A stretch of DNA of 64,000 nucleotides from Phycisphaerales bacterium (GTDB taxonomy: Bacteria > Planctomycetota > Phycisphaerae > Phycisphaerales > UBA1924): positions 1 to 64,000 of the forward strand of contig JADZER010000034.1 in NCBI GenBank assembly GCA_020850415.1, written 5' to 3'. Positions within the stretch are counted from its first letter, which is position 1. Each line of letters starts with the position of its first letter. The notes below the pieces were generated by a model that saw nothing but the letters and a program-made list of their open reading frames with translations, made no database searches and had not been told where the DNA came from. This document shows, piece by piece, positions 53,760-56,824 of the stretch. The position numbers were made by a program, and so were the translations under genes.

Positions 53760-54953
53760 ATGCCGAGACTCGACTACCAGACCGCGGGGGAATCGCACGG
53801 GCCGGGGCTGCTGGCCACTGTCACGGGGCTCCCGGCCGGCGTCGTCCTCGACGAGGGGCTGATCAATACCGAGCTCTCCCGGCGACAGGGGGGCTACGGG
53901 CGGGGCGGGCGCCAGAGGATCGAGACCGACACGGTCGAGTTCCTAACCGGGGTCAGGCGGGGCAAGTCGATCGGGTCGCCGCTCACCATGTTCATCAAGA
54001 ACAAGGACTCCCGCCTGGACGACCTCCAGAAGACCCCCCCGGTCTACCGGCCCCGCCCCGGGCACGCCGACCTGGCCGGGAGCATCAAGTGGCTGACGAC
54101 TGATTGCCGCGAGACGCTGGAGCGGGCCAGCGCCCGCGAGACCGCGGCCCGGGTCGCGGCCGGGGCGGTGGCCCGGTGCCTGCTCCGGGAGTTCGGCGTC
54201 GAGGTGTTCGGGTTCGTCCGCCAGATCGGGGTGCACGCGACCGCGCTCCAGGTGACCCCGGAGAACTGGCGGGAGATGCTCGCCGCCCGCGACGCCAGCG
54301 ACACCTACTGCCCGGACGCCCCGGTCACCGAGCGCCAGTGCGCGGTCATCCGGCAGGCGAAGATCGACAAGGACACCGTCGGCGGCATCGTCGAGGCCCA
54401 CGCCTTCGGCTGCCCGCCCGGCGTCGGCTCCTCGATGGACTGGCGCGACAAGCTCGACGCGCGGCTCGCCTACGCGGTCATGGGCATCCAGGCGTTCAAG
54501 GCCGTCGAGATCGGGCTCGGGCGCGACTGCGCCGCCCTGCCGGGCTCGCAGGTCCACGACCCGATCTTCTTCGACCGCGCCCGGCAGATGGGCCCCACCC
54601 TCGGATTCGTCCGCACCCGCAACAACGCCGGCGGCACCGAGGGCGGGATGACCAACGGCCAGCCCGTCGTCGTCCGCGGCACGATGAAACCCATCGCGAC
54701 GCTCCTCCAAGGACTCCCCAGCGTGGACCTGAACACCAAGGAGGCCCAGCAGAGCCAGTACGAGCGGAGCGATATCTGTGCGGTCAGTGCCGCGAGCGTG
54801 GTGATGGAGAACGCCGTGGCGTTCGAGATCGCCCGGGCGTTCAGCGACAAGTTCGGGGGCGACTCGGTGGTGGAGATGGGGACGAACTACGACACATTCC
54901 TGAAGCTGGCGAGGAGTCTGCCGCTGGACCCGCCGGAGATGACCATCGCGTAG
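53760..54953 (+). CDS. aroC: Chorismate synthase
   Basis: Chorismate synthase uses reduced FMN to convert EPSP to chorismate. At 397 residues it is of normal length. The signatures are ESHGPGLLATVTGLPAG, RRQGGYGRGGRQRIETD (FMN/phosphate binding), HADLAGSIKW, ERASARETAARVAAGAVAR and TRNNAGGTEGGMTNGQP. The catalytic histidines (HGP near the start; HADLAGS) are in place. The start is fixed by the leaderless promoter. It is monocistronic and divergent from hldE. Confidence 0.97.
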   Translation: MPRLDYQTAGESHGPGLLATVTGLPAGVVLDEGLINTELSRRQGGYGRGGRQRIETDTVEFLTGVRRGKSIGSPLTMFIKNKDSRLDDLQKTPPVYRPRPGHADLAGSIKWLTTDCRETLERASARETAARVAAGAVARCLLREFGVEVFGFVRQIGVHATALQVTPENWREMLAARDASDTYCPDAPVTERQCAVIRQAKIDKDTVGGIVEAHAFGCPPGVGSSMDWRDKLDARLAYAVMGIQAFKAVEIGLGRDCAALPGSQVHDPIFFDRARQMGPTLGFVRTRNNAGGTEGGMTNGQPVVVRGTMKPIATLLQGLPSVDLNTKEAQQSQYERSDICAVSAASVVMENAVAFEIARAFSDKFGGDSVVEMGTNYDTFLKLARSLPLDPPEMTIA

Positions 54954-54994: not shown

Positions 54995-55041
54995 TTGCCC
55001 CAAAGGGGCTTGATAGCCGGAGCCCGGGGCAACGCCCCGGG
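54995..55041 (-). repeat. Inverted REP copy downstream of aroC
   Basis: On the minus strand it reads CCCGGGGCGTTGCCCCGGGC then CCGGCT and CCCCTTTGGGGCAA, matching the transposase-flanking REP unit in inverse orientation with small differences. It lies in the 353-base gap 54954-55306, which holds only repeats and the transposase promoter. Confidence 0.72.
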
Positions 55042-55151
55042 TACGGTGACCAACCACTCTCCCAATGTCCCAACGGGGCGCGACAGCCCCGTCTGGCGCC
55101 GCAGCACTTTCTCCACGGCTCTCCTGATAGCCGGGAGGTCAGGTTCAGTCA

Positions 55152-55243
55152 CGCCCCTTCAGGGCTCGGGTTGACCCGCTGGGCTCGAGACCCGGGGCGT
55201 TGCCCCGGGCTCCGGCTGTTCGGCCCCTTCGGGGCAACCCGCT
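55152..55243 (+). repeat. Left REP cluster flanking the transposase
   Basis: It starts CGCCCCTTCAGGGCTC and includes a 53-bp unit (55191-55243) of two adjacent palindromes (CCCGGGGCGTTGCCCCGGG and GGCCCCTTCGGGGC). The 53-bp unit is identical to 55802-55854 on the other side of the transposase. Confidence 0.85.
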
Positions 55244-55294
55244 TCGAGGGCGTAAGGCGGGGACCGGAATCCCCCCTGAAAGGGCGCGACAAGT

Positions 55295-55300
55295 TACGCT
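55295..55300 (+). promoter_or_regulatory. Leaderless -10 element of the transposase gene
   Basis: TACGCT, six bases (GACACC), then the ATG at 55307. A mobile gene thus carries the host-type leaderless start. Confidence 0.6.
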
Positions 55301-55306
55301 GACACC

Positions 55307-55759
55307 ATGCCCCAGTCCCTCGCCCGCGTCCCGCTCCACCTGATCTACAGCACCAAGAACCGCCGCCCTTTCATCACCGACGCCGTCCGCGACTCGCTCC
55401 ACCGTTACCAGGCCGGCATCCTCGCCAATCTCGGATGCGAACCCATCATCATCAACTCCGTCGAGGACCACATTCACGCCCTCTTCGAACTGTCCCGAAC
55501 TGTGACAATCGCCACCGTCGTCGAGGAGGTCAAGAAGTCGTCGTCGAAGTGGGCCAAGACCCAGGGACCAATGCTTTCCGAATTCGCCTGGCAAATCGGC
55601 TACGGCACATTCGCCGTCTCCGTCTCGAACATCGACCAGGTCCGCCGCTACATCGAGAACCAGCGCGAACATCATCGCGATCTCTCGTTCCAAGACGAGT
55701 ACCGCGAGTTCCTGCGGCGCCACAACATCCCTTTCGACGAACGCTACATCTGGGACTAG
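55307..55759 (+). CDS. IS200/REP-type HUH transposase (Y1_Tnp)
   Basis: A 150-residue single-strand DNA transposase of the Y1 HUH superfamily. The metal-binding HUH motif is His55-Ile-His57 (SVEDHIHALFEL) and the catalytic tyrosine is Tyr115 in VRRYIENQREHH. The N-terminal PLHLIYSTKNRRPFI is typical of IS200-like enzymes; the C-terminal FLRRHNIPFDERYIWD is also common. It has no accessory TnpB. Identical REP palindromes flank it, so it is better viewed as a REP-associated transposase (RAYT-like) than as a free insertion sequence; no target duplication is visible. The frame is intact. Confidence 0.92.
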   Translation: MPQSLARVPLHLIYSTKNRRPFITDAVRDSLHRYQAGILANLGCEPIIINSVEDHIHALFELSRTVTIATVVEEVKKSSSKWAKTQGPMLSEFAWQIGYGTFAVSVSNIDQVRRYIENQREHHRDLSFQDEYREFLRRHNIPFDERYIWD

Positions 55760-55765
55760 GTCCCG

Positions 55766-55854
55766 CCCCTTCAGGGCTCTCGCGCATTCGACGCCCACCC
55801 ACCCGGGGCGTTGCCCCGGGCTCCGGCTGTTCGGCCCCTTCGGGGCAACCCGCT
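55766..55854 (+). repeat. Right REP cluster flanking the transposase
   Basis: It starts with the same CGCCCCTTCAGGGCTC seven bases after the transposase stop and ends with the 53-bp unit (55802-55854) identical to 55191-55243. The rest of the gap to 56026 holds only a possible promoter (TACGAT, 55981). Confidence 0.85.
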
Positions 55855-56026: not shown

Positions 56027-56824
56027 TTGGAGACCAATCTCAAACGCTGGGCGGTGCTGGTGGGGTACTGGGCCGCGCAGGCGGTCGTGCTGGTGGTCGG
56101 CGGCACGCTGTTCTATGGCTCGACGGCGGGTGGACATTGGGAAGTCATGTCAGCCGCGGACTACATCGAGTTCCTGGGCGAGCACGACATCAAGGTGCTG
56201 CTGTTGATCTGGCTGCCCTTGCTAACCGGCTTGCAGTGCCTGCTGGTGCTGCCGGTCCAGCTCCGGCCGGCGGCGAGGGGCCGGGGCAAGAGCGTGTGGG
56301 TGGCGCTCGCGGCGGCGGGGGCGCTCATCGCGCTGGTAACGGTCGGCTTCGGGGCGGCGCTCTCGGAGCTGGTGGTGCTCTACGGCTTCCTCGGGCCGCG
56401 GGGCTGGTCGTGGCCGCTGCTGCTCGTGTCGCTGGCGGCGAGCTGGGCGGTGTTCACGACCCTGCTGGTGCGGTACTCGCGACGGAGCACGCTGGGGAAC
56501 GAGGACCTGCTGACCCGCGTGGCGCGGATCGTGTTCGCGGGGACGATCGTCGAGACGGCGGCGCTGATCCCGATCGATGTGCTGATCCGGCGGAAAACGG
56601 ACTGCTACTGCTGGGCGGGGAGCCTCGTGGCGCTGGTGCTCGGCGGGGCGGTGGGGATCGTGGTGGCGGGGCCGGCGGTGTTTCTGCCGCTGTTTGCGCG
56701 CCGCCCGCTCTGGCTGCGGGCCGGGCGGTGCGGGGGGTGCGGGTACGACCGGCTGGGGCTGCCGGCGGCGGCGGCGTGCCCGGAGTGCGGGGCGTCGGCT
56801 CCTGGGGACGGTTCTGCGCGATGA
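56027..56824 (+). CDS. Membrane protein with C-terminal zinc ribbon
   Basis: A 265-residue protein with about six membrane helices (near 8-27, 56-78, 90-112, 115-147, 170-190, 200-225) and a C-terminal four-cysteine ribbon (Cys235, Cys238, Cys251, Cys254: CGGCGYDRLG, CPECGAS). The ribbon resembles that of the 41.2-44.4 kb proteins but is at the other end. The TTG start at 56027 follows GGGAGGGCGG; later GTG codons are possible starts. No known family is recognised and the function is unknown. Confidence 0.7.
   Translation: METNLKRWAVLVGYWAAQAVVLVVGGTLFYGSTAGGHWEVMSAADYIEFLGEHDIKVLLLIWLPLLTGLQCLLVLPVQLRPAARGRGKSVWVALAAAGALIALVTVGFGAALSELVVLYGFLGPRGWSWPLLLVSLAASWAVFTTLLVRYSRRSTLGNEDLLTRVARIVFAGTIVETAALIPIDVLIRRKTDCYCWAGSLVALVLGGAVGIVVAGPAVFLPLFARRPLWLRAGRCGGCGYDRLGLPAAAACPECGASAPGDGSAR

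Follow-up and report, generated by a model that had tools for sequence, protein, structure and literature searches.

The spread of palindromic repeats in bacterial genomes and the role of domesticated transposases in it are an open question, studied almost solely with TnpAREP. A locus of a Phycisphaerales genome (4.4 Mb assembly, 84 contigs) raises this question again: next to aroC, a gene for a HUH transposase is found among clusters of palindromes. Which class of enzyme is encoded here, and are the palindromes its own repeats? An earlier note, made from the letters of the analysed stretch of 64,000 nt (hereafter the window), had read the locus as a REP-flanked, REPtron-like unit in a setting known from gamma-proteobacteria. 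The features of the locus are listed below, with half-units scored by the covariance model R1, which is described further below.

53760..54953, + strand: aroC (chorismate synthase, named from sequence), left neighbour of the unit
54995..55086, + strand: half-unit H1 (R1, 54.7 bits, E 4.8e-11), with hairpin b 54997-55009, foot GGAG 55019-55022, palindrome a 55023-55041 and hairpin c 55067-55079
55146..55237, - strand: half-unit H2, facing H1 (R1, 60.1 bits, E 2.7e-12), with c' 55153-55165, a' 55191-55209 and b' 55223-55235
55273..55285, + strand: solo c hairpin CCCCTGAAAGGGC, immediately 5' of tnpA (R1 partial match 55221-55292, 11.4 bits, E 0.43)
55307..55759, + strand: tnpA, 150-aa HUH Y1 transposase (Pfam PF01797, E 1e-22)
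55758..55848, - strand: half-unit H3, the right end (R1, 58.0 bits, E 8.3e-12), with c' 55765-55777, a' 55802-55820 and b' 55834-55846
56027..56824, + strand: hydrophobic protein, right neighbour (tblastn to locus L106 of the congener G001, 34% identity, 2e-22)

The repeats reported before are present as described. Identical 53-bp double palindromes are located at 55191-55243 and 55802-55854 with tnpA between them (91% identity over 74 nt when extended), the clusters share the same start, GCCCCTTCAGGGC, at 55153 and 55765, and a third, inverted copy is found 5' of tnpA (54995-55042; 90% complementary over 48 nt). The double palindrome of 45 nt was counted twice in the window, whereas 100 shuffles gave none. 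The 53-bp palindromes are pieces of a larger three-hairpin module and not a single GTAG palindrome. The locus has the order H1(+), H2(-), solo c, tnpA, H3(-), where H1 and H2 form a mirror pair without a gene that abuts tnpA. The composite bounded by H1 and H3 spans 854 bp, with a complete end at H3 and a left end of tnpA that is reduced to c. The solo c has the same position relative to the tnpA ATG as hairpin c in relatives; it is the left end of tnpA itself, with palindrome a missing. Because its left end lacks palindrome a, the tnpA copy of the window may be defective and have lost the ability to move itself. The leaderless promoter of host type proposed for the gene was not recovered: a sigma-70 scan, which covers that promoter type alone, gave none here.

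The transposase itself is intact with its HUH pair and Tyr115, as had been claimed. It matches Y1_Tnp (E 1e-22), and H55, H57 and Y115 are invariant in an alignment of 54 members. The HUH motif DH[IV]H is present as DHIH (54-57; D54 likewise invariant), the W motif WQ as the nearly invariant W95 Q96, and the Y motif Y---Q--HH as YIENQREHH (115-123), with Q119, H122 and H123 invariant. A C-terminal extension, FQxExRxFLxRHGxExDERYxWD, is conserved, and the length of 150 aa is close to the 148 aa or so typical of subclass 1.2. The AlphaFold model (pLDDT 95) has its closest solved folds in the TnpA proteins of ISDra2 and IS608 (Foldseek 1.6e-10), with TnpAREP farther away, and the sequence matches structure 2xm3 with E 6e-7. 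The NCBIfam IS200 model is passed with a score of 57 (cut-off 55), and REP_Tyr_transpos scores 16.4 bits (cut-off 80). By its motifs, the protein is assigned to TnpA-Y1 subclass 1.2, which belongs to class 1 and is related to IS200. An identity as TnpAREP/RAYT (class 2) was considered and rejected, given the Y motif YIENQ instead of Y---NP and the missed REP_Tyr_transpos cut-off.

By protein similarity, the nearest named relative is encoded in a Phycisphaerales MAG. In a tree of 76 relatives, the window TnpA belongs to a clade of ten, with support of 99/92, most members of which are loci of the same order. Phyla are intermixed across the tree, which fits the expectation for horizontal spread.

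The surroundings of tnpA were compared at 58 loci found by protein similarity and at further loci from related genomes. Read towards the gene, the module begins with hairpin b, whose loop has 3 nt, and continues through a spacer to a foot with AG at its end. Palindrome a follows (in the typical case 8 bp with a 3-nt loop), then about 30 nt, and finally hairpin c, at a distance from the start or stop codon that ranges from a few nt to some tens. The centre of b lies 19-20 nt ahead of palindrome a, independent of the stem length of b. The foot ends in AG in nearly all loci; GTTG is found in four, at both ends wherever both were read, and these rare feet cluster on the tree. A survey of flank repeats covered 75 relatives from outside the Cyanobacteria with Y---Q--HH and both flanks (threshold z>6). 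Significant repeats flank the gene in 65 of them, inverted in 62 and direct in 29. A detector of the b-a-c arrangement found the module upstream in 39 of the 75, downstream in 42 and on both sides in 31, compared with 4 of 750 dinucleotide shuffles. Among plasmid controls, none of eight IS200-type loci has the module or inverted three-hairpin ends. Both subclass 1.2 plasmid loci (Persicobacter, Bernardetia) have inverted flanks, with a full module on each side in Persicobacter. The Bernardetia flanks (L254) carry an AT-rich hairpin, GCTGCGTAGCTGCG, that was missed by the module detector, so the diversity of modules is broader than the model.

The covariance model R1 was built from 14 modules chosen by the hairpin detector, so that its 100% pairing is given by construction; in one row (L031D), a single base was removed manually so that the spacing matched. 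Detection elsewhere, orientation and dispersal are the evidence relied on. The nearest module found by R1 points towards the gene at 46 loci and away from it at 7 on the upstream side, and towards it at 40 and away at 7 on the downstream side. Over all three stems, both sides of a pair are changed in 10 of 18 pairs, compared with 1-3 in slid controls, within 14 rows that had been selected for pairing. The stem sequence thus appears to vary with pairing kept. At several loci of the clade of the window (L073, L074, L076), complete mirror pairs adjoin the gene instead of single inward modules, like H1 and H2 here.

The exact double palindrome, which the earlier note proposed to count across the genome, has full-strength copies at this locus only; other sites match it at 76-80%. 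Taken by itself, this count would have pointed to an absence of dispersal. A structure-aware model was required, and it found the module at four further places with E<1e-3 (contigs C4, a mirror pair, C59, C30 and C17), as well as weaker ones. Overall, the genome holds three strong modules at the locus and about five diverged ones elsewhere. With so few full-strength modules, local activity may be low or past.

Other genomes are richer in modules. R1 found 120 half-units in G223, which belongs to the same order. Of these, 104 are arranged as 52 c-to-c pairs; the gap has a median of 18 nt, and none are divergent at that distance. Such a mirror pair without a gene (b-a-c...c'-a'-b') measures about 197 bp. 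The 35 copies that were read fall into four sequence types (16, 11, 4 and 4) with varied flanks. Units are present in every one of the 20 genomes to which loci of at least eight phyla led, with 3-92 per genome and a repeat sequence particular to each genome; some of these genomes had supplied sequences to R1. Among 250 relatives, scanned with R1 at 17 scored candidates per genome, tnpA and units occur together in 50 and neither in 155; units are absent from 28 of the 78 genomes with tnpA and present in 17 of the 172 without detected tnpA (odds ratio 16; p 2e-18, a value that ignores the relatedness of the genomes). In G258, several copies are 93-97% identical, which suggests recent spread. The 14 copies compared there have a common core from b to b', and some are alike further into the flanks. 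A joined-flank search for a clean empty site in G223 gave half matches only.

G223 also encodes three diverged tnpA genes, 60%, 45% and 36% identical to that of the window, each beside a different type of module. The repeat is NTAG|CCCGGGG next to the gene on contig C312, CCAAAG|CCCAGGG next to that on C287, and GTAG|CCACGGGT next to that on C140. Enzyme lineage and repeat type are thus paired in this one genome. For the pairs of the large type B (e.g. L169, L175, L176), no matching tnpA was found in the assembly; type B is an orphan family or its gene is missing. On C312 (L179), tnpA directly follows the left module, and 6 nt separate its last matched codon from the right module. The right half-unit of this locus (1128-1409) forms a tandem duplication that includes roughly the final 20 bases of tnpA.

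At the sequence level, members of this branch are flanked by inverted b-a-c modules, and usually lie inside them, and the same modules are dispersed as mirror pairs without a gene. The organisation is REPtron-like in that the enzyme's own palindromes flank it and are dispersed as pairs, strongly in G223 and other genomes and weakly in the genome of the window. We therefore consider the locus to be quite probably a REPtron-like unit based on a class-1 HUH transposase of subclass 1.2 that mobilises mirrored hairpin elements in trans, with cleavage and mobility being what we infer. From the earlier reading, the transposase among its own repeats, which are also dispersed as non-autonomous copies, is retained and is strong at the family level. 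The likening to REP-associated genes of gamma-proteobacteria is not, since the enzyme is not a RAYT/TnpAREP and the repeat is a mirrored three-hairpin module. Two findings named beforehand as speaking against a REPtron-like system are partly present here, the exact palindrome being local and the protein standing on the IS200 side; the comparison across genomes leaves such a system unrefuted. The module would fold in single-stranded DNA, e.g. on the lagging strand, where the enzyme may recognise palindrome a with the AG foot as guide. Tyr115 would then cleave the DNA, and mirror pairs would be excised and inserted in trans by TnpA, with the tnpA gene itself presumably remaining at low copy number. 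As a speculation, a further effect of hairpin c beside the start codon may be to hold back translation.

An ordinary autonomous IS200-like insertion sequence could account for the same picture if the hairpins were its two ends and the gene-less pairs were deletion derivatives (MITEs). The nearest folds, those of ISDra2 and IS608 TnpA, agree with this, as do genes that often lie exactly within one mirror pair (as in L179) and pairs that resemble internally deleted copies. However, a genome has few copies of tnpA, with strong divergence between them (three in G223), compared with many gene-less pairs, the eight IS200-type controls lack inverted three-hairpin ends, and some loci in the clade of the window (L073, L076/L180) have the gene bracketed by complete pairs. 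We regard this explanation as possible but rather unlikely. A domesticated transposase with a host role, acting on single-strand hairpins at forks or in mRNA and leaving the repeats as old immobile passengers, appears improbable to us. Low copy number, long coexistence across phyla and the 17 genomes with units but no tnpA would suit it, and such roles were proposed for the non-IS subclasses (PMC6006769). Yet identities of up to 97% among the G258 copies, varied insertion contexts and the presence or absence of the locus between congeners all indicate movement in evolutionary time.

Hairpins that are unrelated host signals (terminators, mRNA stabilisers) and lie near tnpA by chance were weighed as well. 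The hairpins are indeed GC-rich, stable and close to gene ends, with H1 just 3' of aroC. However, the b-a-c geometry is fixed and faces inward around tnpA across phyla, it is as rare in shuffles and IS200 controls as stated above, a terminator scan found no T-run terminator-like sites at the locus, and an Rfam scan gave no match near its gathering score. As the sole explanation, host signals are already refuted, with hardly any probability left to them; a secondary host use of individual copies is possible.

REPtrons of TnpAREP/RAYT and their REPINs (class 2; E. coli, Stenotrophomonas, Pseudomonas) likewise combine a low-copy HUH Y1 transposase with its own palindromes, and their inverted pairs are scattered as non-autonomous units. 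In REP-Sm, GTAG stands directly ahead of a palindrome of 8 bp whose loop has 3 nt (PMC8266576), which is the geometry of palindrome a with its foot; the cleavage site of TnpAREP is believed to be selected by the final two bases of GTAG (PMC8266576). In contrast, the enzyme described here is of class 1 with Y---Q--HH instead of Y---NP, the foot is NNAG (GGAG in the window, GTAG in some relatives only) or GTTG rather than GT[AG]G, hairpins b and c are added at fixed spacing, and the gene often lies within a mirror pair. IS200/IS605 elements (subclass 1.1; IS608, ISDra2) are closest in fold and sequence and share the logic of guide plus hairpin, a tetranucleotide 5' of the hairpin serving as guide (PMC8266576). 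They have their hairpins on a single strand, ends that are not inverted and, often, tnpB as a neighbour; here the ends are inverted repeats of each other, the C-terminal extension is present and no tnpB is found among the ORFs read around tnpA. The IS200-type controls also lack HH after Y---Q.

Subclass 1.2 was described by Quentin et al. (2018; PMC6006769) as occurring mostly in Cyanobacteria and Bacteroidetes, as not sharing the properties of IS, and with 'no' REPs. The members studied here agree with it in protein signatures, length and low copy number; they differ in being flanked by modules and in occurring in at least eight other phyla in addition to Bacteroidota. The REP search of that study demanded GT[AG]G feet, and it likely reported none because such feet are mostly absent from these modules. 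The published absence of REPs does not hold for this branch of subclass 1.2. In the open-access literature, searched by sequence string and name, nothing later on repeats of subclass 1.2 was found, and PMC6006769 and PMC3733652 were the only relevant papers. On balance, we lean slightly towards subclass 1.2 being a second, independent class of REPtrons, in which a trans-acting IS200-related enzyme would spread mirrored elements of three hairpins through many phyla. The recognition code would be specific to the lineage and co-vary with the protein; it would consist of the AG or TG foot, the stem of palindrome a and the fixed distances from b to a and from a to c. If this is true, an IS200-related branch thought to have no partner in DNA has an abundant one in at least eight phyla, intermediate architectures exist (gene within a pair, gene between pairs, pairs alone), and the repeats would account for many of the clusters of hairpins in Planctomycetota and in phyla close to them. 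Natural sets of enzymes and matching repeats inside single genomes make guide recognition testable.

The history of the locus was followed in congeners. In G001, about 155 bp without a module separate aroC from the homolog of the gene to the right of the unit. In G002, it is the homolog of the next gene but one, identified from sequence as aat, that comes after aroC. The unit is thus present in some genomes of the genus and absent from others, through a gain here or a loss there. Mirror pairs are absent from the aroC locus of the same-genus genomes and located elsewhere. The aroC of G001 (L106) is split into two reading frames by an in-frame TGA, which is either an assembly error or a pseudogene.

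Some pairs of G223 show further rearrangements. On contig C190 (L204), hairpin b alone is left between sequences that flank whole pairs elsewhere. At L161, L166, L178 and other loci, the outer flanks place mirror pairs inside another dispersed repeat (GAGCCGGACA...TTGCGATGC). At L263 (G223:C96:8700-10100), palindrome a' of a mirror pair is interrupted at about 516-945 by an insert of ~430 bp with 19-bp terminal inverted repeats, TCGTTGTACTACACAAGTC, and a flanking 11-bp duplication, GGGCGTTGCCC; this insert is another mobile element that has used the hairpin as its target.
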